The notes below the pieces were generated by a model. It was not told where the DNA came from. It searched no databases and worked only from the letters and a program-made list of their open reading frames with translations. This document shows, piece by piece, positions 1 to 54,082 of a stretch of DNA of 64,000 nt (position 1 is its first letter; every line of letters starts with the position of its first letter). A program made the position numbers and the translations under genes. This DNA comes from Pegea sp. RAD2-039 (taxonomy: Eukaryota; Chordata; Thaliacea; Salpida; Salpidae): positions 1-64,000 of the forward strand of contig JAQGEQ010000297.1 in assembly GCA_034620365.1 (NCBI GenBank), read 5' to 3'.

Positions 1-4
1 GTAG

Positions 5-1085
5 AAATCCTATGCTTATTAGATATCAAATTTTCGTGCATAAGTTTTGGAAGTTTCACGCACCATTAGAAATACTTCTGATCGCTTTCTTTACTATTCT
101 AATCATCACTCCCAATGATTTTGCTTACGATTTTGGTCCTTTCATTAATTGTTCGGAAAATATTTCTGATTATTCAATTGTTACATCTGTAGCTGGTAAG
201 ATTTGATTTTATAATGTTTTTTTATCTTAACATTTATTTTACTTATAATGCTTTCATTTAGCTTACTAAAAAGTAGAGAGGTTACGACTATAATTGCTGA
301 AGCATGAAAAATATCTTTATAGCTTTGTAACAAATTACTGAAATTTCATCTTACTAAACATTTTGAATTTAATCTAGGTAAAAGCAGTGATTACTTTGCC
401 TTAATGGTATTCTGCAATTATCTAACGTTTGTTCTGTTTGCAATGTTTGGTACATTTTATATTGCTTGCAATATAATGCGAGTATTCTTATTCCAAACAC
501 AGTTTATAATTAACAGTGCGTACATTTCATCAGGTAAGTTTTGACAAACAACAAAAATTTATACTTTCTTAAGCTCTGTTGAATAAAAATTTTATTTTTA
601 GCATATTGTGGTTGATTGCTAAAATTTACTAGAAACTATATAATTCAATTAAAGTGTATTGAATATTTAATTGTAATAGTTTTACAAATTACCTTTAAAA
701 TTTTTCTTTAAAAGTTTGCATCAAAATTTAGAATTATCCTTTAATTATCCAGTAATTATCCCAACAAACTACAACTGGAAAATGTTTACAGTCACTTTAT
801 TGTTTTAAAGGAACCGCTTTATTTCTTGCATTCTCGTATAGCCGTGAAATTTCAATCTGTGATCTGGAAGAAAACGAAGTATCTAAATATGCTTGGGCGT
901 TGGCTTCTGCAATTCTCTTTTTTGGTTTTTCTCGTCTGGTTATAACATCTTTCTTTTTTATCAAATATTTGATATTGAAAAGGTTTTACAATAATTCTAG
1001 AAAATACCTCGTTGAGTATCTTGACTTTACTGTTCATACACCTCCAAAACTTTCACCTTCATCAAGTAAAACCACTAGTGTGTAA
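5..1085 (+). CDS. Tetraspan membrane-protein module, 5'-truncated by window edge
   Basis: Three coding exons at 5-195, 378-533 and 811-1085, each after an AG acceptor; the first two end at GT donors and the third at the stop. The phases join without a break and end at TAA 1083-1085. The first acceptor lies at bases 3-4, so upstream exons are outside the window. The product has four hydrophobic segments, a short loop with ITPNDFAYDFGPF after TM1, and a polar serine/threonine-rich tail. Exon lengths (191, 156, 275) equal those of the downstream module of the gene at 30342-32881, so the two are paralogues and this is probably also the second half of a two-module gene. The topology recalls MARVEL/synaptogyrin-type proteins, but I recognise no family motif. 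A poly(A) signal AATAAA is at 1369-1374. Confidence 0.75.
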
Positions 1086-4084: not shown

Positions 4085-4143
4085 GGTATTAAGTAGTGCC
4101 CCAATAGAATATCCAGGAAACATCAATCAAGATTACAACCAAG
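4085..4143 (+). repeat. Extra diverged copy of the SxAPIECP exon
   Basis: The sequence reads SSAPIEYPGNINQDYNQ and ends CAAG|GTAATT, aligning with exon 2 of the relics at 5591 and 9880. The conserved cysteine is lost to tyrosine, so it is a dead copy. Confidence 0.45.
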
Positions 4144-5644: not shown

Positions 5645-8600
5645 TATTTGATGTTAAAATGAACTCAACAACCCTTAGGTGTCTTGAATAGTATTTGATA
5701 ATGATAGAGTAAGCGATTACGTCATCAGTAAGAAGATTAACAAATTGTATTCGATTGGCAGATAGATGATGGGGGTAAATTCCAATGTGGAAGGTTCATT
5801 CGCAGCTTCATTACAGTTTTGTTTTCGCTTCACATTTCTAAATTTGTTAGATACGAAATTATGGACAGCAATGGAGTACTTGTGAAGGCTTGATCTAATA
5901 GTCATGGGCTAACCAGGATGTTGCTGAAATTTCGTCGAAAATAGTTTCCGATATCTTCTAATTATATCTCCTAAAAATCAGGAGCTGATTTCTTTCTACA
6001 TAAAAAGTCAAATTTGTGATTCTGCAATCTATCTCATCTTCATCACTTCAGTTTTTCATTTTCATCAAACTCTATTTATTTTCTTAGTGTTTATTGTACT
6101 TTGATCTGCCAAATATTTGTGATCTTAGATTTTTATTTTGTAATGTTTTGTTATATTGCTATTCTGAGCTTCAATTTTTTTATTATTATATTACCTTCAT
6201 ATGGAGTGAACATTTACTTTTAGCTTCTGTCTTTGTATGAACAGATTCATTCATTGATAATTTTTAAATTAAACTAGCTGATTTCAAATAGGATCTGATA
6301 AACAAGAATTTTGTTAGATAAAATTATTTTCGGTTTGATTTGTTTGAAAGTTTTAAATTCAGTGTTTATATTTGACCAAACTAACATCTCAATTGTTTCT
6401 GACATTTTTGTAAGTTGTTATCATCAACTAATTTTATAACTTTATCAACTTAGGGCTTTAAGCTTTGTATTTTGATGAAACTGTTGAAATAAAATTTTAT
6501 TTGGAATTGCTTCGACATAAATCCAACATTCAAAGTTTATGTTGTACTTCATTTGATTTACTCAATGACATAATAAACTGAACATCAGTTAATACATCAC
6601 TTATTGAAGTTGCTTAGTAAAAATGAAAAGAAGTATTTTAGTTGTGTTGTAATTGTTATGCTATCTTGTACAGCTTGCAACTTACAATCAAATTATTGTT
6701 GTCTATCAAAATTTATATCCAAATACAAATGAAAGAATAATTATTATTTCAAATCTAAGAGGTTTTTCTAATTAAAATTATAATTTGGTAGTAAACAATC
6801 CAAAATCTTAAAAACATATGTCTTAGTACAAACTACAGAGGTAACCTCTAAAGACACTTAAGACAGTCGTAGTTTTCACAGAATACAACATAAATTTCAG
6901 ATGTGTAACTATTTAGTTTTGGTCGGCTTTTTAATCATAATTATTTATTGACATCTGTAAAATTTAAAAAACTGACTTGTAATCTATTTTTCTAAACAAA
7001 TCTATTAAATTAAACAATAAAACACCAGGATTCCTTTTCGATTCAAAGCTTTATTTTGGGCAAAGAACTGTAAAATGGATATTACAAACTACTTAATATT
7101 CGATTTAAAACAGTCCAAACTTTAACAGCTGCATTATTTTTTGTCAAACCTTCCAAAAAATTAATCATTTGATTGGTGTAGGCGAAACTTTAATTAAGAT
7201 TACGTGAAAGACTTGACCTTTGAATGTAGATTGGTTATAATATATTTCTTACCGGTTTACCATTTAAAAAACTCTACCTTTATAATTAACATCACATGGG
7301 TAGTAATGTCGTAATCTTGATTGAGGTATTATTTTACCACTAGAATCTACATCTAAAATATTATTATTTATTTTAAGGAGAGCGAAAAAGTTTTAAGTTA
7401 AAAGTCTCAAACATATATGTTAATTAAGCATGAAAAGATTGTTTGATTTTCAACCAAGAAAGTTAAAAAGTTACGCTTGTCTCAAAGGACTTACCTTTTA
7501 CAACTAAATGCTCGCCTAGCACTTTGACTATAAAAAACAAAAAATCAACCTAACATCTTAAATGTTATTTTGAAAATTGCATTGCTTTTTTTAAAGAGAT
7601 TTATCATTGAAACCACCTAGGACCTTTTTTAACTTCAGAAAATCTTTTAAAAGATTTTAAGGTTTATACCTATTGGTTTCATATCAGTTAAGTTTGTTGA
7701 TCTATTTTATATCTACTTTTTCACTACTTCTCATTTAAGAAAGCCTAATTTATAAACTTTTTAATATATAAAATGGCTATATTTTATTAATTCAGTATAT
7801 AATAAGACAGTATTGTAATTAAAGTAGACTAAAGTTATTTTGAAAAATGGAGTTTGTTTCAAAGATTAAATGACTTAGTGGTTTATCACAAACATATCAA
7901 AAGTCAGATAAATTTATAATATACGTTATTTGAGAAGACTAACTTTTAGCAAATTTTATTTCAAGACAAACAGATTTATAAATTAGAACAGGAATTCAAA
8001 ATACTAACTTTTAACATTTTTTTGTATAATCCAGTTCATATTTTTAATATCTTCTTTCAATTTAGTCATCTTACATTTATTTTCTTATCTACATACAAAA
8101 ATCTAACTTTTTACCTAACATATAGGTAAAATCTAACAAACTCCTACAACAACGCAGAGTGGAACCCTGATGCTAAGCACCAGCAGATACTCACAAATTT
8201 ATGCCGCTGTATATTTCTACATGACTTGTGTATGTATGACCTTTCGCGGCCGAAGCAGGCTAAACTATACATGTTACCACACCAATTGACTTGTGCAAAC
8301 CATATCGCATTTAATTTATTTAAAGAAAAAATATCCTGAGATGTCGATTTGTACTTTTTGAAAAAACTTTTAAAATTTATTTTGCTTTTATGTGGATCAT
8401 GGTTTCCTGCAAAATTTAAAAAAAATTATAATAAATAAATAAAAGAAAGAAAGAAAGAAAAAATACATGTTTCAAAATGTTTAAAAGTAATTTTAGAACA
8501 TTGTTTACCATAATTTCAAGTTGTTTTTATTTTATTTAGGCTAAGTTTGATTTATTTTCATACCAAATCTCTGATTTTCTGTCAAACTGTATATAATATT

Positions 8601-9162
8601 CTCGTAATTATAATGTAATTTGTATTATATACCAGAAACATTTTAATCTCCATAAGTTAGTTCATCAGAATTTTTTTCTAATTATAAGTTCTTGTGAACA
8701 TTTGATCTTGTTTACTTTTTATGGTTAATTTCTAAGTTTTTAGGTTTCTGTATTTAATGTTATTTAATAATATTTTTTTCTGAAATTCATTCTTGGTTTT
8801 GACAAATTTGACAATCTAATAGTTAGTTTGCACATGAGTATCTTGAATTATAATTAACTATTAATTAATACTAAATTCATGAACTATTTTTTTTTCTGAT
8901 ATATTGTTAATGTAAGCTTGGTATTTCATTATTTGCAGACATCAATTTCTCTCTTATAAATACTTGTAAATGTTATTTGTTTTAAAAAATAGAAGCTCAA
9001 CTATTAATAGATTACTCCATTTTAATAATTTGGAATTCATCAAATAATAACTTATTGATCTTGGTAAAGTAACGGAATATTATCAATTCAAACTTAATTT
9101 AAACTGATTAGCTGACCATATTATACTCCCTTCACTTGTTTGACAATTGCTGATCTTATTAC

Positions 9163-9222
9163 AGCAAGTGGTGCCCCAATAGAATGTCTAGCAAGCACCA
9201 TTCAAGATAAAAAATAAGGTAA
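9163..9222 (+). repeat. Extra diverged copy of the SGAPIECL exon
   Basis: After TATTACAG the reading is SGAPIECLASTIQDKK followed by TAA just before the GTAATT donor. It matches the exon at 5591 and 9880 but carries a stop, so it is a relic. Confidence 0.45.
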
Positions 9223-9708
9223 TTCATATGAAAATCAACTTACTAATTACTCTTTAAAGTTGATTAGTTAAATAACCAATTAGTTATTATCTATTTTGAT
9301 AAAGTGTAAGTATCTTCTAACTCCTTAATTATCTTTATCTTTTGACTGTATAATTAACCAAAAATTTTAAAAAGATGTATTATTTTTTAAGTAGTGATAA
9401 TGAATGTTTTCTTTCTTAATAAAAGAATATACTTTTAATGATATATAGTTTAAAATAAATGTTTAGTTTATATAATATTAAATGTCTTAGTAGCTTTTAT
9501 ACTTTCAGGAAATTGTTGATACTACCTAGTTGAAATAAATATTGAGAAGTATCATTTTTCACAATCAGCTGAATTATAAATGTTAAGCTTGTCAAGTGGT
9601 CGTGTCTTTATTGATTATAACTGGACTACATTCTTCTTCCTTCATCAACTTAAATTGTGAGAGAATAAAATCTTTATCTGATATTTTAAATAAATTTCTT
9701 TCTATAGA

Positions 9709-9930
9709 TTCCACTATCTAAATAGTTTGAAACTCTTCAAACAATGTAAAAAAGGTCTTGGTGAAATCTGGGGGGATTTTAAGACATATTGCTGTGGTAA
9801 GACAGGTATTGTATTTTTAAAGTTTCGAATTTTAAAGATTTATTTTTCTCTTTCCAGATGCTGATATAATTACAGCAAGTAGTGCTCTAATAGAATGTCC
9901 AGTGCCCACCATTAAATACAAAAAACAAGG
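9709..9930 (+). pseudogene. Relic exons of a cysteine-rich protein (duplication copy 2)
   Basis: This matches 5409-5644. Exon 1 keeps FHYLNSLKLFKQCKKGLGE and ends TATTGCTGTGGTAAGACAG|GT in phase 1. Exon 2 can start at CCAG|ATGCTGAT in matching phase, giving a continuous frame through SSALIECPVPTIKYKKQ to a GT donor near 9930. This copy is thus still open across both exons, but one cysteine of the first copy is replaced by tryptophan and no flanking exons are recognisable. Loose similarity to HYR-type repeats (P-x-x-C-P) is only a guess. Confidence 0.4.
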
Positions 9931-11228
9931 TATTTCATGTGAAAATGAACTACATCAGGAGCTGATTCCTCTCGACTTAAAAAGTTATATTTATGATCTT
10001 GTAATCTCTGCTTTTTTCATCTTCATCACTTCATTGTTTCCTTTTCATCAAATCTATTTCTTACTGTACTTTGATCTGTCAAATATTTGTGATATCAGCT
10101 TTTTATTTTGTAATGTTTTGTTATATTGGTAGTGTGAGCTTCAATTTTTGTATAATTATATTACCTTCATATGAGTGAACATTTACTTTTAGCTTCAATT
10201 TTTGTATAATCAGATTCATTCATTGATGTTTCTTATATTAAACTAGCTGATTTCAAATAGGATCTGATAAACAAGAATGTTGTTGGATTTAATTATTTTC
10301 GGTTTGATTTGTTTGAAAGTTTTAAATTCAGTATTTATATTTGAGCAAACTAACATCTCAATTGTTTCTGACATTTTTGTAGGTTGTTATCATCAACTAA
10401 TTTTATAACTTCATCAATTTAAGGTTTTAAGCTTTGTATTTTGATGAAATTGTTGAAATAAAATTTTATTTGGAATTGTTTCAACATAAATCCAACATTC
10501 AAATTTTATGTTGTACTTCATTTGATTTACTCAATAACATAATAAACTGAACATTAGTTAATACATCACTCATTGCAAATGTTTAGTACCAACAAAAGGA
10601 AATGTGTTAAAGGTGTTTTACTTGCTATCTTGTACAACTTGCAACATACAATCAAGTTATTGTCGTCTATCAAAAGTTTATTCAAAGAAATATGAAAAGT
10701 CTAACTGCTATTCCAAATTTAAGAGGTTTTCAAATAAAAATATGACTAGATAGTAAATAACTCGAAATTGCAAAAACATTTTAGTACAAACTACATAAGT
10801 AGCCTAAAAAGACACTTAAGATAGTCGTAATTTTCACAGCAATAATACATTAGTTTCAGATGTAGAAATATTTGGTTTTGTTCGGCTTTTTATTCAAGAT
10901 TATTCATTGACATCTCTAATAGTTAAAGAGCTGATTTTTTGTCTATTTTTTTCCAAACAAATATATTTAGATAAACAAAAAACCATCACCATTGCTTTTC
11001 GATTCAAAGCTTTATTTCGGTCAAAGAACTGCAAAATTCCTGTTACAAACTACTTAATACTCCAAACAAGAAATTAAAACAGTCCAAATGTTAACAGCTG
11101 CATTATTTATTGTCGTATCGTCCAAAAAATTATTTATTTGATTGCTGAAACGAAAATTTATTTACGTTTAATTGAAAGATATGCTCTTTGAATATATGTT
11201 TTTAAATAATTATAATTTTTCTATTTTG

Positions 11229-20274: not shown

Positions 20275-20298
20275 ATTTGAAACTTATCAAAGCAAGAA

Positions 20299-21510
20299 AT
20301 GAACTGTTGTAAAAAACAAGAACAAAATAGCTGGGGTCTTCTTTGGGACCACCATAGAGGAAAACTTCTCAGTCTATTGTCAAAAGATGAGGAATCATTT
20401 ATTTGTTTTCAAAATGCTAATGAAGAAATTATTTTAAAAAAGATTAAATCTTCATCAATAGTAAAATACTCCAGTAAACCCACTTTCAAGCTGGAATGGT
20501 GTCGCAAAGAAATGGAATTTACAATGGAAACGAAAAAACCTATTGACCCGAAATTAGAAGATTTTCATCAATACCAACCTGGATTTCTTCAGCTTTCTTT
20601 TGAAGTTGCTGAATATAAATTTCATCGTCTTCCAGTTAGTATCTTCATATTTCAAGAAAATCTAGACAACAAACTGAGAAAGCGAAGCAAGGGAAAATTG
20701 TTTACTCTATCAAAACTTGGCAAAGGAAGCTTTGGGGTTGTATTTAAATGCTATTCAACTGTAAGCTGTCAGTTGGTGGCTGCCAAAACCCTAAAAAAAA
20801 CATCTAATATGGATCAGTGGAAGTCTCGGTTGGAATGCTTGAAATATGAGAAGAATTTCTTACTCTCAATCAATCATAAGAACATTATTGGGATAATTGC
20901 TAAAGAATCAAGTATAAGTGACAAAATAGTATGTCTTGATTTATCAACAATTGGAGCTCTTACGACGTTCATGGACGACAAACCGATTGCTGAAAATCTG
21001 GCCAAACTATTTGTTAAAGATATTATCTCAGGTCTTGGTGAGCTGCACCTTAATAACTTCCTTCATCGTGATTTGAAACCAGAAAACATGTTAGTGTTTA
21101 ACCAGGATGGCCACTATTCAATCAAAATTTCAGACTTTGGATCAGTTACCAAGAGTTACAACGATCCAAGATTGTTAGAAATACATGGTACTGCAGTTTA
21201 CTCAGCACCTGAGATTGCCAAGTACATTATATTCAGCAAATTACCTGAATACAAGAAATCATCCGACATTTTTACTGTCGGTTCGACTTTGTATAGAATA
21301 ATTTACAACCGGCATGCTTTTTACATACAGTATACCTGTCCAGATTTCAGGAAAAAGCTAAAAAATGGAACCTATTCACAGTCAGATCTCAAACCTTCCT
21401 TTGAAAACTCATCTCCAGAGCTTATGAGCTTCTTTTACTCGTGCTGCTGTATCGATGAGCAGGAACGACTGACTGTAGATGAGCTTGCAAGCCATCCTTG
21501 GCTCAAATGA
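20299..21510 (+). CDS. Single-exon protein kinase with N-terminal extension
   Basis: A 403-residue frame whose C-terminal two thirds is a complete protein kinase domain. Visible elements are the glycine loop GKGSFG (141-146), the ATP lysine in VAAK (K163), a candidate helix-C glutamate (E184), HRDLKPEN (256-263, catalytic D258), DFG (279-281), APE (303-305), the helix-F aspartate in SSDIFTVGS (D323) and R390 before the terminal HPWLK. All catalytic residues are present, so an active Ser/Thr-type kinase is likely. About 15 extra residues lie between APE and helix F, as in IKK-related kinases, but I cannot assign a subfamily. Residues 1-135 match no domain I know. The start is the ATG 24 bases after a likely acceptor at 20274; a poly(A) signal is at 21691. 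Part of the gene was duplicated and decayed at 25769-26210. Confidence 0.9.
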   Translation: MNCCKKQEQNSWGLLWDHHRGKLLSLLSKDEESFICFQNANEEIILKKIKSSSIVKYSSKPTFKLEWCRKEMEFTMETKKPIDPKLEDFHQYQPGFLQLSFEVAEYKFHRLPVSIFIFQENLDNKLRKRSKGKLFTLSKLGKGSFGVVFKCYSTVSCQLVAAKTLKKTSNMDQWKSRLECLKYEKNFLLSINHKNIIGIIAKESSISDKIVCLDLSTIGALTTFMDDKPIAENLAKLFVKDIISGLGELHLNNFLHRDLKPENMLVFNQDGHYSIKISDFGSVTKSYNDPRLLEIHGTAVYSAPEIAKYIIFSKLPEYKKSSDIFTVGSTLYRIIYNRHAFYIQYTCPDFRKKLKNGTYSQSDLKPSFENSSPELMSFFYSCCCIDEQERLTVDELASHPWLK

Positions 21511-28260: not shown

Positions 28261-30341
28261 AATTACAAACGTTAACCAGATGTCTCAAATATTTCTTGAT
28301 TATATAAATGCGATGCCTGTATAAATTGTTGATGTCCATAACGTAAATCGAATGGCTTCTAATTTAATGGTAAAACGTGAGGTTTCCTTATTACATCAAT
28401 CCCTCATCACATAATCTAAAGGAAACCATTTAGTCTTACATGTGATCACAAAATGATTATATCTGTTGTTAATCAAAAATTTTCTTTAAATTATAAGACT
28501 CAATAAAACAGAATTCTTATCGTAGAAACTATGCATATATTAATAAATTCTGTCAGGTTTTGCCTAGAGTTATGCTTTGAACTCTACTGATGTCATCAAT
28601 TTATTTGTTCACGGCCTTATTCACATCAGGGAAGAATAAATTGAAAAATTTGGTTATTACATTTCAACAAAAAACCACATTTTTCCAATTATTAAATAAA
28701 TTTACAACATTTAAAAGGCCTCCTATGCAAACTAAAACAGACCCATATATCAATTTTATGTACACTGATTATTCTATAGCTTATAAGAAATGAATTTTTA
28801 ATTTTTACTTAGATATAAAAAGCGCAGTTTTATCTTCAACCAGTAAAAAAAACTTTGTTGCTTCTTAAAGTTAAGAGCTTAAGGCGGGATTTGAGTATAA
28901 TAAAGTAATAGTTAATTTAAAGCATTTATAAGATCCACATATCTTAAAACTTACAAAAAAACAAAACAAAAACTTTTTAAAATCATTGTTACTACTTTAT
29001 AAATAAACTAAAACAATTACATCATACCTTTAAATTAAAATAAATAATAATACCTTCAATATGAAACTAGAATAGCTAGTGAAAGTCATACAAAAACTAC
29101 AAACTTCTTTTTATATTAGAAGTCAAATTCTGCTTTAATGTTTTTATTAGATAATAATAAAGCATGAAATTTTATTCTTGCAAATTATCAATTGGTGTAA
29201 ACCAATTAAGCAAACAGTCTGATGTTATTTTTTAAATGCGTTGTTATTTCAAAAATATATATATTTAGAAAGTGTAAGCTAAGTAAGTATGCAATAAATT
29301 TTAAGCATTTACTTGTGAAATGTAAACGAATAAGGCAAAAAACCAACATTAAGTAAAATTAAACAGAATGTTTTTTTAAAGACAGAAAAAGACTAAAATA
29401 TAAATGAAAGTTGTTGTGATGTTATCGATAGAGTTATGTTTGTATGATAAATGTATTTTAAAATAAATAATTATTATTAAGATAAATATATTCAAGATCT
29501 GTTTACTTGAAAACTAAATATGAGAGAGTAAAATAATACGTTTTCAAACAAAGTTGTCTCGTATAACTAACGTTAAACAATTTATACTGGTGAACTTTTG
29601 GAGGTTAAACAGTTTTCTAAAGATAGAATTGTTAAATTTCTTTTTAGCTAGTGCTGAACTTTATTTCATTTCATAGCTTGAATTTTTTACTGGTAGCTGT
29701 AAGTTTTGATTTTTGTTTCCTTTTTTGAACAATCTTTTACAAGAAAGTCAACTTAACTTTATAAGTTTTGATTTTATAAATTTTAGTGTAAAATATATTA
29801 CTAATATAATACCAGATGAGTCACTATTTGGACGACTAACACCTTTATAAAATTTTATGATAGTTGTGATAGCAATTTTGCTATGATACTTTAGGAACAA
29901 AAAGTTGTTAATGCGTTAGTATTTACTTTCGATGATTCATTATATTTCAATGATTAAATTTCCAAAAAACTTTCATAAAGATTGACTAAAAAAATGTTAA
30001 AAACTGTGATGAATAAAAATAAAATTATTTTGTGGTAGTTCCTGATAGAGCTGTTTTCAAAGCATAATTCGATTATTAGACTTGTAGACATAGAGCTTAC
30101 TCAAATTTAGTGAGCAACCCAGTTTTAAAGTAGATTAAAGCTATATTATTTATTCAAAATGTTGTATTTAAATTTAGATAGATTCGATTTTATCCAACTT
30201 AAGTTTTTGATGAATTTGTGAAAAAACTAAGCGAGAAAAAAATATTATAATTTTTAATATAACAAGTACCTTATATAGCTCTGCTTGTGTTATATTTTAA
30301 TAATCTTTAATATTTAAAATATTTTCAGAAGAAAATTCCAA
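28261..30341. other. Non-coding AT-rich stretch
   Basis: No supported gene. A 67-codon frame at 28590 begins with TTG and has no recognisable features. The last part should contain the promoter of the tetraspan gene that starts at 30342, but no convincing element was picked out. Confidence 0.5.
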
Positions 30342-32881
30342 ATGCCGTCTGAAGTTTCAGTAAACTCGTAAGTTAATACTTTCATCTCTGAGAAATATTA
30401 CATTTCATATCTTTTCTAGTGCAAATTATAAACTTTGTAGTCTAAAATATTTCAACACTTTAAGAAACAAGACATAGTCTTACATCGTTTCAAATTAAAA
30501 TGTTTTTTTTTTCAGAAATCTGGTGCCTGTCACTTACAACAGCTTTGTTTCGAAGTTTTTGAAGTATCATTTGATCTTCAGAGTAGCTGTGGTTGTGCTC
30601 TTCACCTTTCATATTTTGGCTCCAAATGATAATCCTTATGGATTTAGTCCTCTAAGAGAATGGGGAAGAAATAATTCACATTGGTCCGTTGCATCATCTG
30701 TATTTTGTGAGTAAAAAATCTGTTTAGTTTTGTTTATTTTACTATTATTTATTTATATTTATTCTACTCTCTACCATTTATTATGTATTGAACTATTTAT
30801 GTCTTGATTTATAGGAGAAGTAAATGTAAGGAGTTTGTTTGTAAATCAATTTTTCATCATATACTTTATTATTCAATTTTTTAGAACTAGATAGTAATAT
30901 CCATTATCAATAAAGACATAAAAATAGGATATCAAACCTTAAAATTATCTGCAAAAAAAATTAAATTAGCCTGTTTTATTATTTAATATACTAATTATTC
31001 ATCTTTTAAACAAGATGAGGACTCCGATTCGTTTGCATGGACCATCTTCTTTAGTTATCTAATATTTGCAGCATGTACATCTTGGAGCCTGTTATTTTCA
31101 TGCTTGAGACTTCAGAAACGTATTGTGCTCATAGAGCAGTTTGTGATTAATAGTGGACTAATTGTTTCAGGTGATTATAACTACAACAATATTTATATAA
31201 TATTAAACCTTTTTATTATTAATTGCATAAATGTTGTTTACTTAAATTTCTAGATGACAGTTGTCAATTTTCTTAAGAATCAAGTACGCAAACTTAATCA
31301 ATCGATTTTGATTATTTTATAGGCTCAGCATATTTTATTGGAATTATTTATGAGCGACAGAATATAAATACTTATTCCAATAATAGCCAAATAACAGCTC
31401 TAGCTTGGACGTTAGCTTCTCTAATCGTACTTTCTGGATATACTTGTTTAATTACAACATCTGTCTACTACATCAAGTACAAAGTTTTAGTATTTCATTT
31501 AAAACAGTGTCATCATAAAATTTTTTTGAAACTAATTTCTTTTTTGTATTGGATAATGTTCGCAGAACTTTGTAAATCATAAATATTTCAGCAAATTTGT
31601 TTTAGATAAGCTAATTTCTAATTGACACATTTTTGATTTACAGAGAAAAAATCAATACTGCCGTTCATGATCCTGAAAATGAGTTAGTCTTTCTAACTTG
31701 TATTTAACATTTTTTCCAAAAGAATTTTTCTTTTTAACTAAAATACCATTAGTTTATTTCAGTATTCTCGAATTTATTTTTAGCTGTAGATTTGGCCTAA
31801 GCTAATTACTAGTGTTGTCAAACTAAAACAATAATTTCACATTTTGTAGAAATCCGATACTTGTTTGTTTCCACATTTTCGTGCGAAAGTTTTGGAAATA
31901 TCATGCACCATTGGAGCTTTTATTAATAATGTTTCAAACAATATTAATAATAACTCCTAATGATTTTGCGTATGGAGTTAATCCCTTCAATTATTGTTTG
32001 GGAAATAACTCTGATTGGTCAATTGTGACATCTGTAGCTGGTAAAATTTGCTTTTGTAATCTTTATTTTTAGCAGTAATAACCTAAAATATAATAATTTT
32101 CAATTAAAAAAAATATCATTATGGCTTTGAACAAATTTCTTAGATGTTATATCAATGAATGCTTTTACTTTAATTTAGGCAAAAATAACGATTACTTTTC
32201 CATGATTGTGTTTTTCAACTATATTGGATTTGTTGTATGTACAATTTTTGGTGCAGTGTATGTTGCTTTCAAGATACTGAGAATATTTGTATTCGAAATA
32301 CAGTTTATTATTAATATTTTAATTATCAGTTCAGGTGAGCTTATACATATAAAACCTTAAGATTTTATTATTTAGCACTTTTACCGTTGAATGTTCAATG
32401 TTAATACTTTAATTATTGGTTAGTTAAACTTGCTACAAGCTATGTAATTAGTTAATGTGTGCTAATGTTTAATATAAATATTAACAGAATTAAAATTTCA
32501 AAATTATAAGATAATATCCTAAATTTTGAGATTCTTTTATTTTTATCAAACAACTATCATAAAAAATAATCATACAGAAAATTTTACAATTTGTAATGTT
32601 TTATAGGAACTGCATTATTCGTAGTATTCTCGCATACCCGAAAACTGTCTTTGTGTAATCCAGACAAAAGTGAAATATCAACCTTTGCCTGGTTTTTGGC
32701 TTCTACAATCTTCGTGTATGGAATCTGTCGGTTATGTGTAACATCTTACTTTTTTATTAAGTATATGTTGTTAAATAAGTTTCTCAATAGTATTATAAAC
32801 TCGCCTGTCGAATATAATAATCTTACTGCTAACACGCCTTCAAGACTAAGATCCACTGCTTATATAACGTCTACTGTTTGA
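30342..32881 (+). CDS. Two-module (eight-TM) tetraspan membrane protein
   Basis: Inferred exons: 30342-30367 (MPSEVSVN), 30516-30706, 31015-31170, 31323-31476, 31644-31682, 31850-32040, 32179-32334, 32607-32881 (TGA). All junctions have GT and AG and the phases match, giving about 395 residues. Each module has four hydrophobic segments and, after TM1, a conserved PND-x-x-YG loop (LAPNDNPYGFSPL, ITPNDFAYGVNPF). The first two exons of each module have identical lengths (191 and 156), so the modules arose by internal tandem duplication. The link uses donor GA|GTTAGT at 31683; if it is not used, module A ends at TAA 31705-31707 and module B needs its own or a shared first exon. No ATG exon for module B was found between 31707 and 31850. 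The topology suggests MARVEL/synaptogyrin-like proteins; the family is unassigned. Poly(A) signal at 33113. Confidence 0.75.
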
Positions 32882-35103
32882 CGTCTACTGCTTAGCGTCT
32901 ATTGTCACTTTATAAATTTCAAAGTATATTCTTCAAGATTATAATTATAAAATATTTACCACCATTAGAGTTTCTCTTCTTTTCGGAAACACATAATAAT
33001 ATATTTCGGTATTCTCCAGTTTCGTTGTGCTTCTTTCCAAGTTTTTTATCTAACTAGTTTAAAGTGTTTCTTAGTGTCCTTTTAAGTTTGTGTTAAACTG
33101 ATATCTTAAATTAATAAAAACTTTGTATGAGCTGTGAGCAAGGATGTTCTTTATCAATTTTGATTCTTTGACTACTGACTACAAGAATTATTTGGTGGAT
33201 AATCAAACAAAGTCATCTGAGTTTTAAGAATCTTAGAATTTTTAAAGTTAAGCTGTAACTGGAATAGAAATAAACTCAAGATTAAAATATTTAGAAAAAG
33301 ATAACCAATCTTAAACATCTCTATTGAAATTTGGTTTTGATTTCTTAAAATATCGTTTGAAAAGCTAAAAATAGAAGACTATTTTTTTTGATTTTGCAGA
33401 AAGTTCTTACGCTTTGTTGACTCTGGTAATTTATTAAAAAAATTTTCTTGAAGAAATTTTTGGCAAAAGTAATTTTTTATGATATGGAAATACGACAAGA
33501 AAAACTAATTTCAGTTGACAAAAAACAAATTAATTGCACAATTTCAAATTGAACCTCACTTAAAGTAATGTTTGAGCTGTTTTTTCAAACTTAACAAAAA
33601 AATATAAATTTGAGATAAGAAATAATTAAATCAATACAACTTTTAATTTTATCTCATCAACCATTAACAATTTTTTGGCATGTAATGTGATCATTTAATT
33701 AGTTGTTACATAAAAGCTTCCAATATTAAAATAATTTCTAAGGTAATTCAGTTGATTAAATCTTACATTCCACATGTTAAACTTGCTTATTTCTAAAACA
33801 AAAGTCCCTACGTTGTCTTATCTCTCCTTGCATTATCTCCAAACAAAAAATGAAGTTCTATTAATTACAAGATCTGACAAACCTCTTTAACGAATGTTGT
33901 TGAAACTGTGAATAAAAATTTTCTTGAATTATTTCGATGTAATTGCAACAAAATATTCAAGCTTTGGTCTAACTTTGTAATCTTCAAAAGGTAATAAAAA
34001 TATCACTAGATATGATAATCGAAAAATTTCAAAGATTATATCTGAACAGGTTAGTTTATCCAATAATATTAATGTCAATGTCAATCTTGTCCAGCAAAGT
34101 CAATTTTAAATTTTAAAAGGATTAAACAATCGAAATGTATGTGGCTGAAACTGAAGCGTGAAATCAATGAATTTTCAAACTAAGATAACTAAAGTATTTA
34201 TTAATAAAAACTTCTTCTACCAACATTAAAGCAAAAATATCAAATAAAATTTTTTAATTATTTTGAAAAATAAAACTAGTAAATTATGGTCATTCTGCGT
34301 TGTTAAAAAATCTAATGCTAAAGAAAAAAATTACAAGTCAAGGTTTTTATAACTGTTTGTAACAAACATCATGAATGAATTAAAGAAATATACAAAATCC
34401 TTAACTTTCAAAAATATGGTTTGGTTTTAATGCACTCTTAGGCATGCTGGGTGATATTAGTCACTGAAAGTTCACAAAGATGTTAATATTTTGTATTAAA
34501 ATTAATTTCATAATATTCTTAGTATTTGATTATAGTCAATGAAACCGACTACTGTTTTTTAGCAGTGGTGTGAACTTTACCGTTATCGAAGAAACTATAA
34601 TTATTTAATACATCGGTTATCGAGCGCTGAAAGTATTCTTTCTAATAATAGTATACCAAATGTCTTCTTGTCGCATTGAGAAAAGCAGAGGTTACAGTAG
34701 TAGGTCAAAACTATAAATCTGAAATCCATTTAATTTAATTTTATTTTCTTTAATGTATTGGCAGTGAATGCAAATATTAAGGATGGCTCAGCGAACGCAA
34801 CTCTCCCAAATAATTAAGGCTCATGCAATAGAAGGTGCCTTGGCCAGTCTTATAGCGAAAAAGACAGAAAATAACTTCAAAATAATCACAGTCATGATTC
34901 TGCTTAGCGATCAAGGATATGAGACACCTTCTATATTTAACGAATACTGACAGCAAAGACACACGTGAGGCAGTTGATCTAAGATTTGAAAACTTTAATA
35001 AGTTTTGTGTAAATGCAAACTTTGAAAAAACACTTAAAATAAAACAATTAGAATAAAAACATTTGTATTGATTTAATTAGCAATTTTTGTTAAAGTCTTT
35101 TTG
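32882..35103. other. 3' UTR and intergenic stretch
   Basis: The first ~750 bases share patches with 1086-2420 (old duplication). After that nothing is recognised. A 60-codon frame at 34768-34950 lies in slightly GC-richer DNA but has no homologue I recognise and starts with a non-ATG codon. Confidence 0.5.
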
Positions 35104-35269: not shown

Positions 35270-38200
35270 TCACAGTTTAGAAATGGCAATGTTGGCGATA
35301 TTATAACAATTCAGCTTTTTCTTGAACAGCATAAGTGATTTTGACATGACAATCTCTGATGGCAGATTGTTCCATGTACTGATTGTGCGGTATGAGAAAA
35401 AACTTAATCTGGTTAACGTAGCTGGTGGAGTGGGCTTATTAAGATGTAATTTATGTCTTCTAAGTTGATATAACTTGAGGGAGGGACTAATGGAGAAAAA
35501 GTCATCAAACTGAAGATCAATTAGGTTGTGAATAATTTTAAAAATCAGAATAAGGTCGTATTTAATTCTTCGGATTTCCAAAGTATCTAGATTGAAGAAG
35601 CTGAGACGATGCTTATAACTCTCGTATTTAATATTAAGTTTCCTGCAAACCAATCTCGTAAATTTTGCCTGAACAGATTCGATTTTTCTGATATCACCAA
35701 CTTGATATGGCATCCATGCACTGACATTGTATTCAAGAATAGGGCGTATGTACAGTTTGAAAAGGTTCACGTAAAACCATGGATTTTTAGAATTAAAAGT
35801 CTTTATGATGAGGTGGACAAGCCTGATAGATTTTCCAAAGATTCTGGAAACATAACTGTGCCATTTGAAGTCAGATGTCAGAGTAATGCCGAGGTCTATG
35901 ACTGAGGATACTCGTTCAAGAATAGATCAATTGATGTAGTTACGGGAGAATGTTATAACTTCAGACTTTGTTGGCTGGATTTTAAGTTGCCAATTCGCAG
36001 ACCAGTTTTCTACAATATTAAGTGCAGTTTGGAGTTTTGAGTGAGAACCAGATAATAGCTTGATGTCGTCTGCATACACAAACACACTGACATTGTCTAC
36101 TGTTATTAGTCTTCTGATGAGGTCTTCAATGAAAATCAAAAAGAGAAGTGGACCCAGGACGGAACCTTGAGGAACGCCGCTGGTGACTTTACTAGGAGTA
36201 GATAAAGATCTTTCTACACGGGTTCGTTGGGTTCTACCTGATAAGAAATCTTCAATCCATTTTAAGATAGAGTTGCTGATTTTTATGTTTTTCAATACAG
36301 TAATGAGCTTGTTGTGTGGAACAGAATCAAAAGCTTTAGCAAAATCAAGGTATATGATGTCACATGGAGTATTACTTTCGTAATGAGCTGTAAGCTCATT
36401 GAAAAAATTGAGATGTTGAGTCAAAGAAGATCTTTGCTTAACAAAGCCATGCTGGACATCAGATATTAGATGATGCTCCGTCAAATGGCTAGTTATATGG
36501 TTGTGAATGATGTGCTCTTGAGTTCTGCAGATAACCGACGTCAGCGAAACTGGTCTGTAGTTAAGTGCAGTGTTTCTGGGACCCTTCTTATAAATTGGAG
36601 TAATAATAGCATTCTTCCAAATTTGTGGAAGTCTTCCCCGCTTAAGAGTCATGTTAAAGAGTAGCGATAAGGGTAGCGCTAAAGAAGAAGTACTTTTTCT
36701 TAAAAACAAAGCTGGGATTTGATCTGGGGTGTTGGAAACTGTTGATTTTAGAGAAGAAATAGCCTTAGATACTATATCAGCTGTTATGTCTAGATCTACC
36801 ATCTCAGAGATATTTGAAAGGATATTGGAGTAGGAAATAGTAGGAGTATTGCCATCATCGGTTATAAAAACCTTTTCAAATTGTTTGTTTAGCAATTCAG
36901 CTTTATTCTTTGGTTCCATCACCAGCTGATTAGCGTTATCAAGCAAGGGAGGTAGATGAGATCTCGCCTTAAGCTTGTGATTAATGAAGCCAAAAAACGT
37001 TTTCTTGCTAGGTGAAGATAAGATTGCACTTTCTTTTCCTAAATAGAAGCTATAAACTGATTTCTTGTAGACTAGACAAAGATCTTTGTATAGAGGTTTG
37101 ATGGAAGAATCTGCTTTAGTTTGTTTGTATAAGAGGTTTTTCAAATGCTGTAAATTCCTTAAATATCTTGGCAAGTGTGGTTTTTTGTTGACTCTATATA
37201 AAGGTATGAACTTTTTAATTGACTCATTAACAATGTTAGTAAACCTCGAGTAGATATCATTGATGTCTTCGGAAGAGTTGAAAACAGAAATCCAGTCAAC
37301 ACCTGATAAAAACTTGTTTATACTGTTATAATTTCCACGATAAAAGTTCCGTATGCTTGGAGTTTTAACGTTCGTAGAAAAAGTTTGATGGAGCTTGAAT
37401 TCAATCATGTTGTGATCGCATGTCAGAGCAAAAGGTTCATTTTGATCAACGTAGATAACGTTCTCAGGTTTTGATGTGATGAGAAGATCCAAAGTATTAC
37501 CACTAACTTGGGTTGGAAAAGTAACCATCTGAGATAGATTATTGGCATCAAGGAAGTTTACAAAGACATGACTCAGATTGGCTGAATTAGTTTTGTCTCC
37601 ATTCAAATTAAACAATTTTCCATTGAATGCTAAATTTGGGTTATTCCAATCAATTCTACTAAAATTAAAATCCCCAAGAATATAGATCTCAGGACAAACT
37701 AGGCTTTTCAGAACCTTCAATAAGGCCTTAATAGTAACCTCATCGTTAACTTTAGACGGTGGTAGGTAGGTACATATAAAGCGGGAAAACTTAGACTTTG
37801 AGTAATGAAAATTGAAAGCAATAATCTCAAATCCTGGGCAATCAATGGTATTTATCTTAATTCTTGAAATCATGGGTGCCAGTGATGTTTTATAGATTAC
37901 ACAAACACCGCCGCCTCTATCAAACAGTCTATCACAGCGCAAAGCACGAAAAAGATCACTGTCATCCAGAAAGGAGTCAGGATAAAAGGGTTTAACCAAG
38001 TTTCGGTAATGAAAACAAATGTAAAATCTTGAGAAAGCAAAAGAGCTTTCAATTCGAAAATTTTGTTGACAATTGACCGTGCATTGAAAAACAGACCTAA
38101 TATAATAGAAAAATTGTCTTTTTGACACTTGTAAGATTTGGTGGTAGGCTTCTGTGTACTGGTATCTTGAGCTGGAAGCATAGTATTAATAATTTTGTGC

Positions 38201-38289
38201 GAAGAGAGGTTGAATAAGGATGATGTGGGTCCAGTGGTTATTTTGCACTTCCGTTTTTTGAAAAGACCTTCACAATCTTTAAAGCCCAT
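35270..38289 (-). pseudogene. LINE ORF2: endonuclease-reverse transcriptase with one frameshift and one stop
   Basis: The frame opens at the ATG at 38289 and covers the endonuclease start (NARSIVNK, ITETWLN). Near 37990 it shifts by one base in a T-run, then continues to 35929. Endonuclease motifs include ILGDFNFSRIDW and the terminal DHNMIEF. Reverse transcriptase motifs include LDFAKAFDSVPHNK, SGVPQGSVLGPLLFL and the catalytic VYADDIKLL. A TGA at 35927-35929 interrupts the frame; the same frame continues through a C-terminal region with LYIRPILEYNVSAW and NLPSEIV to the stop at 35270. Catalytic residues are kept. The homopolymer frameshift could be a sequence error, while the TGA looks like a true nonsense change. 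As it stands the copy cannot make full-length ORF2. Confidence 0.88.
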
Positions 38290-39233
38290 GGTGGACCTCG
38301 TACTTTGTATTTGAAATCAGTTGGTTGCTCTTTCTGATTTCGGCTGTACGCCTCTTTTAGAAGACGCTTATTTTCTGAGCGATCATCTTCACACATATCA
38401 TGTGCTACTCTGATGCCCTGGAATTTTTCGTCCTGCTTAAGCTTATACAGCTTAGCAAGAAACTTACGTTTGTCCCATCTTTCCTGAAAGGACACTTTTA
38501 ACGGTCTTTTATGATTTGATCTTTTTGCCCCGAGTCTGGTCATTGAAACCTTTGGAGCGTCCACAAAACCAAGGCTTTGAGTGCTCATTTGATTAAAAGT
38601 CTTGATGTCATCGTCTTTATCAGTCTCGGAGACACCAAAGATGATAACATTGTTTTCTCTATCCTCCCTGTCCAAAGTAAGTTTTTTGTGCGTGTCAGTA
38701 ACCTTCTTGGCAAGAAGTTGCACCACGCTAGTATTTTTTTCGGATCCAGAATTACCAACAACTGAGGCCCATGTGAGAGACTTCTTTGTGGAGGCATCCA
38801 GTTCATCCATAGATTTTGATAAGATAGAAATCTTTTCATTGATTTTGGCAACATCGTTGCCAATTTCGGATTTTAATTTGGCCAATTCAGTGGATATGGT
38901 GTTGCTGATGTCGGACAATAAGCTTTTGTTAGTGTTGGACGAGGTAGTTGTTTTGTCCATAGATCTACATTTAATGCAGAACCAACAAAATCCCACTTGC
39001 TGCATTTTATTATTTTCAAATATATCATATAATTTTTTATTCACATCACTACAAGTGAGGTGAAACCTAGAGAGGCATTTGATGCAATCTATTGCCATAT
39101 CTTCACCAGAGCAAGTTTTGTTACAAGCTTGGCAATTGCCATTGCAAGCTTGTTTTGAAGAACTTGGTTTGCTTGGGTTTTTTGGAGCTTTTGACCGCAA
39201 GGTCCTGCCATTTGTATCTACCATAGTTTCCAT
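38238..39233 (-). CDS. LINE ORF1: PHD-finger nucleic-acid-binding protein
   Basis: A 331-residue intact frame. The N-terminus is basic. At about 33-88 lies a C4HC3 pattern (CQACNKTCSGEDMAIDC ... HLTC ... CWFC) that fits a PHD-type zinc finger. A helical, coiled-coil-like stretch follows, then an RRM-like part starting NNVIIFGVSETDKDDD, with RLGAKRSNHKRPLKVSF downstream. This domain order is seen in ORF1 of CR1-like and related LINEs, where the protein binds the element RNA and forms the RNP. It overlaps the start of ORF2 by about 50 bases in another frame. Confidence 0.88.
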   Translation of the reverse strand: METMVDTNGRTLRSKAPKNPSKPSSSKQACNGNCQACNKTCSGEDMAIDCIKCLSRFHLTCSDVNKKLYDIFENNKMQQVGFCWFCIKCRSMDKTTTSSNTNKSLLSDISNTISTELAKLKSEIGNDVAKINEKISILSKSMDELDASTKKSLTWASVVGNSGSEKNTSVVQLLAKKVTDTHKKLTLDREDRENNVIIFGVSETDKDDDIKTFNQMSTQSLGFVDAPKVSMTRLGAKRSNHKRPLKVSFQERWDKRKFLAKLYKLKQDEKFQGIRVAHDMCEDDRSENKRLLKEAYSRNQKEQPTDFKYKVRGPPWALKIVKVFSKNGSAK

Positions 39234-39260
39234 GATAGATTTTTAGTAACTCCCACCAAA

Positions 39261-40812
39261 CTATGAAATTTATAAGTCAGATAAATGTATGTGATATGTA
39301 TATAAATAAATATATAAACAAATATACCAAGTTAATAAAATATAATAAATAATAATAAATAAATACACCACAAAACTTAATCACAGCTTATTAGCAGTTA
39401 TTCAAATAGAGTATATAGAAATTGAAGATGATAAAAAGTCCAAATTGATTTCTAATCCAGATATGATCACAAAAAATATACAAATCCTTTACTGAAAACA
39501 GTTTTATCAAAGCTTATAAGCAATATCAGAATAAACTTGTTATCCTAACAACCTTATTCAAATAGAATGATGAAGTATGTTTAATTAGTTTGCAAATCGA
39601 GGTTCATAACAAACAAATAGCTTTAAATGATATTAATTTTCAATTATTTTTTAAAACTAAGAAAATTTTTTTTGATTATTGTTGTTGTTATATTCTTGAT
39701 AAAAACAATAATAGAACAGTAACTCTAATAATAGTTTAAAACTACAAACAAACTACTAAACTGGCTTTTTAGTAAACTTCCTTTCAAGTTTTAATTTAGT
39801 AAAGTTTCACCAACTCTTGGTATTATCATTTCTTGGTGAAATTGTTATTTAATATTTATCAATAGTAAAAAGTATTGATTCCTTATTTTTAATATTAGGT
39901 TATATAATAATTGTATGTTAATATTATTCAAGTTCTTGCTTTGTTTCATAAAATACTTTATAATTTTTAGCTGAATTTATTTTTTTGTTTAGCTTATTAT
40001 TTTTATTACTATTATTATTAAGTATCACAATTAATTATGAAAATTTTAAGAAAAATATTTTACTTCATATAATTTCAACTATTCATATATTATAACAGTC
40101 TTTTTAATTAACCCTTTCTATAAGACTATCAATAAAGAGTTTTAATAGAAGTAAACACAGATTATATAACTAAAAACTATTTTCTTTTACCATTTAATTA
40201 ACTGATTTAAAATTATAAGAATTACGTCTTTAGAAGTTCAAGTAGGAAATATCAGTAAAGAATCAAATAAGTATTTTTATGATTTTTTTCTTATTGTTAA
40301 ATAATATTTTGAAATGTTTTAATAATAAACTAGTTTGTACCTTTAATTTCTCCTTGTATAATAATCTGCAATCTAGCATCTATTGATTTTTTCTGCATAT
40401 TCTATCTTACATAGTGTTTAAAATTGTTTACTACAACTGCAAGGAGCATAATTATTAAATAAATTTAATAACTTATAATAAGAGAACTTTTTAAGCATTT
40501 TAATTTTGGATATCAGTCAAAGGATGTACAAAATGCAGCAATCAATTGTTGTTCTTAATATTTATCCTTGGGCTTTTATATATAATTTAACATTTTATTT
40601 AACAAAAATTGATTATTGGTATCAGTTATACTTATAGAAAGATTTGTTATTTTAATTCATTAAAGTAAAGCTTAAATTATATCAATAAAAGTTATGAACT
40701 AATTAATAAGCTCATAAATTAGAAATTATAATAGTAATTTAATGCTTCTTAGATAAAAGTATTTTTAATGGTTTTCAGTATTTTCTCTAAAAAATTTTGA
40801 AGTTTGATAAAA
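39261..40812. other. Non-coding AT-rich stretch between LINE and Ubl gene
   Basis: No open frame or splice-supported exon seen. It should hold the promoter of the gene starting at 40813; nothing specific was identified. Confidence 0.5.
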
Positions 40813-43364
40813 ATGATTAAAATAAAAATTGATATTCTTGGAAAAGAATTTTTCTTAAAAGTCAATAGATCCACCCAAATAAAAGAGATTAAAGACTTAC
40901 TTGCTTCATTATTTAAGTCATCAAATGATAAGATAAAAATCTTTTATGGCGGAACTTCAATTTGTGATTCTTTAACTATCGAACAGATAGTTTTTACAAA
41001 AAAGAATTTTTTTGTTTGTTTTGATGAGACAATTAATTTACAACAAATTGAAGAGCTCTTCATCACTAAGGATTTTTTTTCTGTAAACTTGGCTGAATCA
41101 GCAGCAGAAGCAGTTATTCCAAGAAAAAGTCAAATTAATGTAAGTTTTATTTTATTTTTCTTAGATGTTTCCAGTGTCTTTATAAAGGTGTTTTTTGTTA
41201 TTCTTCGTTTGATGAGTCTGAAAATGTTTCAAATATTAAACTTGCTATTAAATTAGAATTATGAGCAAGAGTCCAGATTATGCAGCTTGCAGGACCACAA
41301 ATTCAGTGAACCTTCAAACAAGACTGAACATCAACAATTTGTGAAACAGGGAACGATTATGGACATAATTTTGAGACATAAAAAACTTGAAAAATCAAGA
41401 CTTCTACAAGAAGGTATCAGGAAATAAATTGATATGTATTTAATCAAATAAATTCAATAATATCTTTAATAAAAGTTGTTTTCAGTAAAATTAACACTAA
41501 TTTTCTTTGGTGCAGCTTCAACCAATAATCAAACTGTTGATTGCATTTTTCAAAATGATAGTGTGGAAAAGAATGAAAGTCCTGGAAAAACGCAAAAATA
41601 CTCATCAAATGATGTCAATGATTTAAAAATGATTCAGAAATCAGTACCAGATTTTCATGGTGAGTTTTTATTTGGTTTCAAATAAAAATTATGTTGTAAG
41701 TACAAAAAAAATAATGAATATTTTGTTGAATTTTATTTTTAAAATAGATCTAACCGCCAATGCTGGATGTTCCAAAGAGTCCAAATATCAAGTAGAAGTA
41801 GTTCTTGAAGATGATACAGCAAAACAAGCAGATTTTGCTGTCAAAACCCAAGCACAAGTGAAACCTTTTTATGAGGATATTCAAATGGAAGGAGATCATC
41901 AAGAAGAGACACTAGAAAAACAAAGTAATGCTAAGTTGTCTAAAAAGAGGATGTCGATAAAATCTAAAGATACTAGAGAGGTAATTGTTTTTAGATATCT
42001 AAACTTTTTCAGTACAGTAAATCATAAAATGATTAATTTAACAAGTTTACCAACTTTCTGTCGCAATAATACTCTAAAGTCATTTTTTTATACTAAATAA
42101 TCACAAAATTAAGTTATATCTAAGTGAATTAACGAAATATTTCCCCTTCATTTTATAATTATAGAAAATCATTATTAGGTTGAAAGCAATGGAGATGGTA
42201 TCCCAGCGATCTCAGTACAAACGAAGTTGCCAACCATCACCTCTCGAGTCACTAGGTCAACAACTCGTCGAGTAGTATATAATAAAGAGGAAGGTATAAA
42301 ATTAAGAAGAAGCTTGAGAGCGAAAGCTTTATTTATAGCGAAAAAGCTCTGTTTATATGGAAATTATTAAGCGTAAAAAATTAATTTTAAACTATTTTTA
42401 CAAAATCTATCAATATTTTTCATGTGCAGCTACAACAATCGCAGATTCCTTATGGACTGATCAGTACATTAATGGCAGTGATGAAGATAGTGATTACAGT
42501 CCTCCAAAAAAGCGAAGAAGCCTAAGCAACTATGCGTGTAAAATGGAAAATGATGAGATGTCAGTGCCCAAATATAAAAGTAAGTTCTGATTAAGATTTT
42601 AAACAAAATTATCTAAAAAATAGTTAAATTGCAATCGATTTTTTCATGAAATTTTGTAAACAGGTGTTACCGCTACTGCTGGATGTTCCATAGAGTCATA
42701 CTTCAGAGGGAATAGGAAACCAAGGGAGAACACAGCAAGAGAGCAAACATATGTTACCATTGAATCTCGAGGAGGTGTAAGGCTTTTAGACATAGTAGAG
42801 AAGCTTAAACAGGGAAAGAGCAACGAAAACACAGTGGAAGAAAAGCTCACAAAAAAACATAAAAGTGAACTTCTTCCGAATACCATCGAAAAAGGAAAAA
42901 GAAAAAGAAGAAAAATAATGAAGTTATCTAAAAAGGAATTCGATGACAAAATGAAAAATTTGGATTGTAATTTATATATAATAAATAACAACCTGGGAAA
43001 TGCTGTAAGGATTTCCCCCGAAATAATTGATTATGAACCGACAACTGATGGTTTAATTACTTTAAAACATAATGATTTTACATCTGTTTTAACGCTACAT
43101 GATGTTTATTTAGCAAGTATCTATGAAACTGATATACAAGTCTCAGAAGAAATTGTAACTGCATCTATAAGTTTGCTGGGAACTAATATTAATACTTATA
43201 TTTGCAAAATAATCAAAACAGAAGCGAGAAGAAAGCAAGATAAAATGGAAGCTAGTGTTCTATGTGGAAGTTCACGGATTATTGAACCCATATATATCCA
43301 CGAAAAAAGTCTTCAAGAACGAATAACATCTTCTTTGTTTGATTTTCTTTCTAGTGAAGATTGA
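40813..43364 (+). CDS. Seven-exon protein with N-terminal ubiquitin-like domain
   Basis: Exons 40813-41139, 41257-41413, 41516-41659, 41748-41980, 42179-42293, 42430-42579 and 42664-43364 join in frame at GT-AG sites to give about 608 residues. The start is the ATG at 40813. Residues 1-75 (MIKIKIDILGKEFFLKVN ... KIKIFYGGTSICDSLTIEQI) fit the ubiquitin-like fold: two strands, helix, then the I-x-Y/F-x-G-G turn. No C-terminal Gly-Gly processing site follows, so it is an integral domain, not a modifier. The middle is acidic and serine-rich. The segment beginning at exon 4 (LTANAGCSKES) is repeated at the start of exon 7 (VTATAGCSIES). A basic cluster (GKRKRRKIMKLSKK) suggests nuclear import. The final ~140 residues look globular but are unknown to me. 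Poly(A) signals lie at 43600 and 43743. The gene converges with the one at 45753-48472. Confidence 0.78.
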
Positions 43365-53081: not shown

Positions 53082-54082
53082 CTAGTCATTCTCAGGCATG
53101 GGCTGGTATTCATCAACTTGTCGCTCATCAAACAAATATTTCCTGAAACAATAAAATATTTATCGTGTAATCATTACCAGATCTAAAATCTTACAAAATT
53201 TTGGGAGTTTTAAAAATCTTAAATCCTCTTTCCTGTTCAGGGAATACATCTTCTAAGAAATAGTAGATATGTCCGCATGTAAACCCTGAAATCAACTGTT
53301 AATTCAACACTGCAGGTCACATGCTGATGACGTCACCTAATAAGTCGACTACGACTAGGTTGTCCATCATCAGAGAAAGGCCAATCAGAACCAAGGGAAG
53401 GTAAGGTGCCTGTTACACATGAGTAATTTAAGTAGACAGTTGTTATGTAGTATGAGTTTACCCGAAATGTGGCCATGCCAAAGAAACTAAATTGAGAATG
53501 AGGGTTCCTCTGACACCAGATGTAAACCATCATAATACTAAAGGATTGTCCAAGGAACAGCAGATTCAGATAAATACCAATAATCTAGATATAAATTTTA
53601 AGTAAGATTGTACAAGTTACTTTGGAAACATACTGCCATGAGACCACCACCGATAAAAAACATGAAGACATAATCAGAAGTTCTGCCGCGAAATGATCCC
53701 TCCTCTAGCAACCGCGAATAATGATAACTAGTTATGTGTTAAGGAACAAATAAGTCAGGTGTTAATGAAGCAGTTAGTCAAGTTTTATAATAAATTTAAG
53801 GATACATAAAAAATAAATTAAATGCGAAATCATATCCAAGTGGCCCAAGGTAGAGGAAGCTGGTGACAAGCCTCCAAAGCTCAAATTCTCGAAATATCAG
53901 TTGAGGGTTGAAGTAGATTTGTAAAGGAGTTACTATTCCCAATTCCTTTAAAAATATTGATGATTAAATCAGCAACTAGTCACGTGAAAAAAACTTACAA
54001 CTGCAAGAGTTGTAATGACGCATGCTGTAGTGTAACCTTTTGTCACTGGAGGAATAAGCATATATTCAGCTTGTAAGGCCAT
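53082..54082 (-). CDS. DERL2: Derlin-2/3-type ER-associated degradation protein
   Basis: Seven minus-strand exons, 54082-53999, 53945-53806, 53727-53634, 53584-53462, 53409-53337, 53285-53195 and 53142-53082, join in perfect phase to a 221-residue protein. It aligns along its whole length with Derlins: [19 protein letters not shown] at the N-terminus, [26 protein letters not shown], the [17 protein letters not shown] block, VYIWCQRNP, and [12 protein letters not shown]. Derlins are rhomboid-like pseudoproteases of the ER membrane that help retrotranslocate misfolded proteins for p97-dependent degradation. The WR motif and the GxxxG-type segments fit. The tail ([19 protein letters not shown]) ends at TAG 53084-53082, shorter than the ~239 residues usual for Derlin-2, and the codons after the stop still resemble the family tail. 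Overlapping longer frames at 52892-53131 and 53333-53533 are partly intron read-through. Confidence 0.93.

Follow-up and report, generated by a model that had tools for sequence, protein, structure and literature searches.

Does the gene copy at positions 30342-32881 of the window (the whole stretch of 64,000 nucleotides analysed here, with which contig C260 of a 105.7-Mb assembly begins) encode a single membrane protein with eight transmembrane (TM) segments or two proteins with four segments each? Larger proteins with internal repeats are known to arise through the fusion of tandem genes for membrane proteins, and such fusions are usually observed long after the event. In the present gene, the elements of such an event seem still to be legible: a splice donor that would lie in an old coding end, a leader that would now be codons, and a start codon that one group of copies has and the copy of the window lacks. 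The reading that we consider probable is one transcription unit, beginning upstream of exon E1 and encoding a 395-residue protein made of two homologous four-TM modules, A and B. With this locus comes, in addition, a membrane-protein family that none of the searched libraries recognises and that appears to have multiplied recently in one animal genome.

Gene structure and copies

The features of the gene, and of a second copy at the edge of the window, are the following.

30255..30341 (+), putative promoter and likely 5' leader, with TATATAG at 30272-30278 and a CAG 13 nt before the ATG
30342..30367 (+), E1, start exon, 26 nt, ending in phase 2; ATG and GTAAGT donor common to six aligned copies
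30516..30706 (+), E2, module A, TM1 and first outer loop, 191 nt
31015..31170 (+), E3, module A, TM2 and the first part of TM3, 156 nt
31323..31476 (+), E4, module A, TM3-TM4, 154 nt; weak donor AA/GTACAA
31644..31682 (+), E5, linker exon of 39 nt, which was probably once the start exon of module B (leader of 13 nt, then 26 nt)
31850..32040 (+), B1, module B, TM1 and first outer loop, 191 nt
32179..32334 (+), B2, module B, TM2 and the first part of TM3, 156 nt
32607..32881 (+), B3, module B, TM3-TM4 followed by the C-terminal tail and the stop, 275 nt; protein end S-T-V
33113..33118 (+), AATAAA, likely poly(A) signal
5..1085 (+), module B of a second copy, exons of 191, 156 and 275 nt, belonging to the group of the other copies; its module A is lost at the contig start

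When joined, the eight exons form a single frame of 395 residues without a stop. The sequence-only reading had proposed that A is joined to B in phase through a GTTAGT donor at 31683, and that donor is present after E5; the exons of 191 and 156 nt, claimed to be equal in A, B and the fragment at 5-1085, proved to be so in all three.

Nine loci are considered: the window copy, C257, C56a, C56b, C55, C256a, C256b, C256c and the fragment at 5-1085. A DNA search of the assembly with E2 found eight of them, the window copy included (a lower bound), and the genome holds at least seven A-module loci besides that of the window. A protein search gave at least 47 exon-level matches, all in known loci and the B fragment at 5-1085, and a second protein query (E up to 10) at least 53 matches on the same five contigs. 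Contig ends leave a single module visible in C256c and in the fragment, and cut C56b in its last exon. In the six uncut loci, counting that of the window, and in C56b as far as its contig goes, module B comes after A on the same strand; no lone module was found away from contig ends in these genome searches, whose counts are lower bounds.

The eight exon lengths and the open fused frame are identical in the window copy, C257, C56a, C55 and C256a, and C56b has the same lengths and an open frame up to its contig end. Because the copies apart from the window copy are 97.4-99.7% identical to one another (93.8-94.8% to C256b), the informative comparison is that of this group with the window copy, whose residues are 54% identical to those of each of C257, C56a, C55 and C256a, the other full-length copies. 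Between the window copy and C257 there are no gap runs in 1188 aligned exon nt, B3 being open and gap-free, and 29 in 1184 intron nt. For the fused gene dN is 0.29 and dS 0.77 (dN/dS about 0.38), for module A without E5 0.29 and 0.52, and for module B 0.30 and 1.11. Gap-free exons and such a ratio form the pattern expected of a frame constrained across both modules; the linker E5 alone is a weak gap test, as about one gap would be expected in its 39 nt at the intron rate.

As to the surroundings of the copies, positions 1-11200 of the window match pieces of contigs C55, C56, C256 and C257 at 80-99% identity, and the gene copies follow one another at a spacing of 18 kb in C56 and of 16 kb in part of C256, where one copy is inverted. 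This match and this spacing read as a recent segmental amplification inside which the contigs end, and the copy number may be inflated by haplotypes. An open reading frame of 138-140 aa (TMTTPFPSFIPSTVSVSWFNHSGIRDPEEE, with small changes) lies upstream of the gene on the opposite strand (L009, 1696-2118) and is present in five of the six loci listed (L009, L010, L012, L013 and L014).

Homology and topology of the modules

That two four-TM modules lie in tandem, as first read from the letters, is borne out by their homology, by eight hydropathy peaks and by the repetition of the layout in other copies. In the window copy A and B are 32% identical by BLASTP (E 8e-26), and they align over about 170 residues without internal gaps, at 32-34% identity, across the four TM segments. 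Their local score is 268, where the best of 500 block shuffles reaches 84; in C257, where they are 41% identical, the score is 352 and the maximum of 500 block shuffles 79. The eight peaks of the window copy (1.53-2.19) were each sought within a region set from the module alignment, and an unguided scan resolved just seven; all eight expected regions hold a peak in the window copy, C257 and C55 (1.26-2.28). Two homologous modules in one open frame, common to diverged copies, as observed here, are what characterises a fused tandem duplicate.

The even number of TM segments per module would place both ends of the protein inside the cell. The motif N61-x-S63 of the first outer loop occurs in all four modules of the window copy and C257. 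The loop cysteines (alignment columns 58 and 141, one per outer loop) are both found in three of these four modules, module A of the window copy having neither, and their joint presence or absence suggests a disulphide between the loops. The protein ends in S-T-V in the window copy and in T-S-V in the four other full-length copies, which we take to fit the PDZ-binding tail consensus S/T-x-V. The two four-TM units likely work as a covalently linked pair, the N- and C-terminus both lying in the cytoplasm; the fused product would measure about 45 kDa, and separate four-TM products 21-24 kDa. A role as membrane scaffold or adhesion protein is our guess.

The junction between the modules

How could such a gene have arisen? 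We propose that a whole four-TM gene was duplicated in tandem, and that the first copy would have come to use a donor just after TM4, within tail codons that are still coding in B (TCAA/GTACAAA), by which its tail and stop would be skipped. In the second copy the leader CAG would serve as splice acceptor, and the leader and 26-nt start exon would become 13 linker codons, the modules thus being joined by a short, charged cytoplasmic linker.

The donor of E4 is the first element of this proposal. The donor region TCAAGTACAAA is identical in all seven copies that reach it, and the matching position of B reads AAGTAT in the window copy and AAATAT, without GT, in the five other aligned copies. By the usual splice consensus AA/GTACAA is weak, and this is the soft point of the fusion model. 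Reading through the donor would give a tail of 34 residues in the window copy and of 8 in C257, C56a, C55 and C256a, unlike the tail of B. The 100 nt past the donor are gap-free between the window copy and C257, as a coding tail might be, and chance is the sole explanation that we offer for it.

The second element is E5, which reads CAG, 13 nt, ATG plus 23 nt and a donor in C257, C56a, C56b, C55 and C256a, with identical letters, these five copies being nearly one observation. E1 likewise reads CAG, leader, ATG plus 23 nt and a donor, the leader being 13 nt in the window copy and C257 and 12 nt in the five others read, which makes the match of its leader length to that of E5 only partial. Compared directly, E1 and E5 show only weak similarity: over a wider stretch it is matched by 29 of 500 shuffles in C257 and 316 of 500 in the window copy, and for the exons alone by 172 and 47 of 500, respectively. 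It is therefore on the layout that the start-exon interpretation rests, by which E5 probably once served the second copy as start exon, with a leader that would now be translated; 13 and 26 nt add up to 39, so leader and start exon make whole codons. The ATG at offset 13 of E5 is in frame with B in five of the six other copies reaching E5. In the window copy ACT stands at its place and the two ATGs of the exon are out of frame with B; it would be the window copy that lost the ATG, as opposed to a gain in the others. E5 measures 39 nt in the window copy and five others and 40 nt in C256b. The earlier statement that B lacks a start exon is not borne out, since E5 has the layout of one. The internally duplicated eight-TM protein remains the best-supported reading, with the amendment that module B probably did have a start exon.

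A third line of evidence comes from the non-coding sequence. Positions 30255-30341 are 82-85% identical and gap-free between the window copy and C257, the highest value among the non-coding stretches measured, the introns between E4 and B1 being 63-71% identical; no stretch before E5 or B1 is kept as well as this block in that comparison. Downstream of B3, AATAAA is present in six of six aligned copies. Between E4 and B1, AATAAA and ATTAAA are absent from four of the six aligned copies (the window copy, C257, C55 and C256a) and occur once each in the gaps of C56a and C256b; since the introns of the window copy hold merely six poly(A)-like signals in 1352 nt, absence from the gap is weak evidence. 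One promoter and one poly(A) region would be the simplest reading. Remnants of the promoter or tail left by the duplication were sought in intron 4, where local alignments were mostly near shuffle level, and the introns of A and B gave no alignment beyond shuffles.

The fused eight-TM protein is preferred because its frame, exon lengths and splice sites are common to the window copy and to copies sharing 54% of its residues, and because gap-free exons, set against the 29 gap runs of introns, go together with a well-kept upstream region at E1 only.

Alternative readings

Among the observations that count against the fusion are these: in the five copies with an in-frame E5 ATG module B could start there, and in C256b an open B persists beside a broken A and without that ATG, which would suit a B-only product. 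In C256b (L013; E2 at C256:39689) the beginning of E3 is spanned by a deletion, E4 contains a stop, and E5 has 40 nt and no in-frame ATG, while E1 and module B are open, B differing from that of C257 by 9 synonymous and 11 non-synonymous changes (dN 0.023, dS 0.063).

If the locus were two separate tandem four-TM genes, which we regard as unlikely, B would begin at the ATG of E5, from its own promoter or as a downstream cistron trans-spliced to a leader at the CAG, with A ending by read-through at the E4 donor. The repetition of the E1 layout in E5, the in-frame ATG, the shortness of the gap between A and B, and the gap of C56a, with one poly(A)-like match and one TATAAAG, would all agree with this. 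The window copy, in contrast, has no ATG of E5 in frame with B and still keeps module B open; nothing before E5 or B1 is conserved as the stretch before E1 is, and the read-through tail of A differs in length between the window copy and the others and resembles that of B in neither. An end of A at the TAA of 31705-31707, suggested as a possibility from the window, is not common to the other copies, five of which, aligned and read with the intron after E5 retained and E5 in frame, give an immediate GAG TAA. One bdelloid spliced leader has no exact match in the genome, which excludes that leader only. In PMC1925144 a trans-spliced leader is reported absent from B. plicatilis.

Lacking the in-frame ATG of E5, module B of the window copy seems reachable only by the fusion or by splicing of E1 directly to B1. 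By the latter, one promoter would serve two four-TM products, E1 joining E2 for A or B1 for B, and we hold this to be quite improbable. E1, E4 and E5 share their end phase, by which an E1-B1 transcript would be open and encode a normal four-TM protein, and C256b keeps E1 and B open despite its broken A. That state fits either an E1-B1 product or a break of A too recent for B to have decayed, and C256b could mark a B-only product. Against direct splicing, E4 would have to be a terminal exon, and its tail is not the same in the window copy and the others; the lack of AATAAA or ATTAAA in the gap of four of six copies points the same way, as a weak test. A decaying locus that makes no protein and whose open frame is a remnant is hardly credible in spite of the clearly broken C256b, given the absence of gap runs from the exons and the dN/dS found.

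Within the fused reading, we put forward as a doubtful possibility that the fusion stands half-way: E5 would be a linker and possibly also the start of a four-TM protein in the amplified copies, and the window copy would make only the fused pseudo-dimer, without the cysteine pair of A.

Family assignment and known systems

The description of the gene as tetraspan holds in the sense of four TM segments and not as the name of a family, as neither tetraspanin, claudin nor MARVEL gave a Pfam match at E up to 10. Tetraspanins carry a CCG motif in a large second outer loop; here the second loop is short, with one cysteine or none in the four modules compared, and tetraspanin was rejected. The family was held to be unrecognised, and searches of Pfam, NCBIfam and PDB sequences indeed name none above cut-off; the profile search of PDB sequences, which compares sequences and not folds, gave no match at E up to 10. 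In module A of C257, TM stretches gave scores with the profiles PF22954 (DUF7027, 15.8 bits) and PF20563 (DUF6773, 19 bits) that fall short of the 27 bits of the curated cut-off, and the window protein and both B modules alone were unmatched; these scores probably reflect shared TM composition. A search of the genome itself with the DUF7027 profile gave no match, its controls being equally silent, and no paper on DUF7027 was found in the literature. Weak matches to Lig_chan, SieB, DUF6773, DUF7027, Deltameth_res and FosA were taken as chance. No relative was confirmed in the viral and prokaryote contigs searched, and among the papers listed on internal duplication and TM counts none was, by its title, about this membrane-protein family.

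Known four-TM families include tetraspanin, claudin/PMP22, MARVEL and connexin/innexin, and none of these gave a Pfam match. The modules described here resemble them in having four TM segments, two outer loops and, by the topology proposed, both ends inside, and differ in the PND-x-x-YG loop and in the single cysteine per outer loop of three modules out of four. Excerpts of two papers (PMC3041646, PMC6862657) describe how read-through transcription and intergenic splicing fuse adjacent genes, and, as far as these go, the likeness lies in an upstream gene that is spliced beyond its end into a downstream one. In our case, however, the partners are homologous tandem copies, the acceptor is apparently the leader of an old start exon, and the fused frame is common to diverged copies, so it looks fixed.

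Other features of the window

The GC content of the window is 27%. Low GC, an assembly of 105.7 Mb and the presence of introns pointed to a monogonont rotifer, but two guide targets of B. manjavacas (up to 1 mismatch) and two primers of B. plicatilis (up to 2 mismatches) found no match, and neither of these two species is supported. Chitin_bind_4 and TTR-52 were sought with no match, in searches whose controls were equally silent. A LINE-type element at 35270-39242 (-) has an endonuclease and reverse transcriptase open reading frame of 752 aa and a second one of 334 aa with a cysteine-rich, PHD-like stretch (recognised by eye; no Pfam match), and is perhaps young, given its long open frames. 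A protein kinase domain occupies one long open frame at 20281-21510 (+) (Pkinase, E 1e-47). Exons encoding ubiquitin-like (40801-41256, +), RING-finger (57562-58350, -) and Der1-like (53799-53963, -) sequences lie within 18 kb, perhaps a chance cluster of genes for protein quality control.
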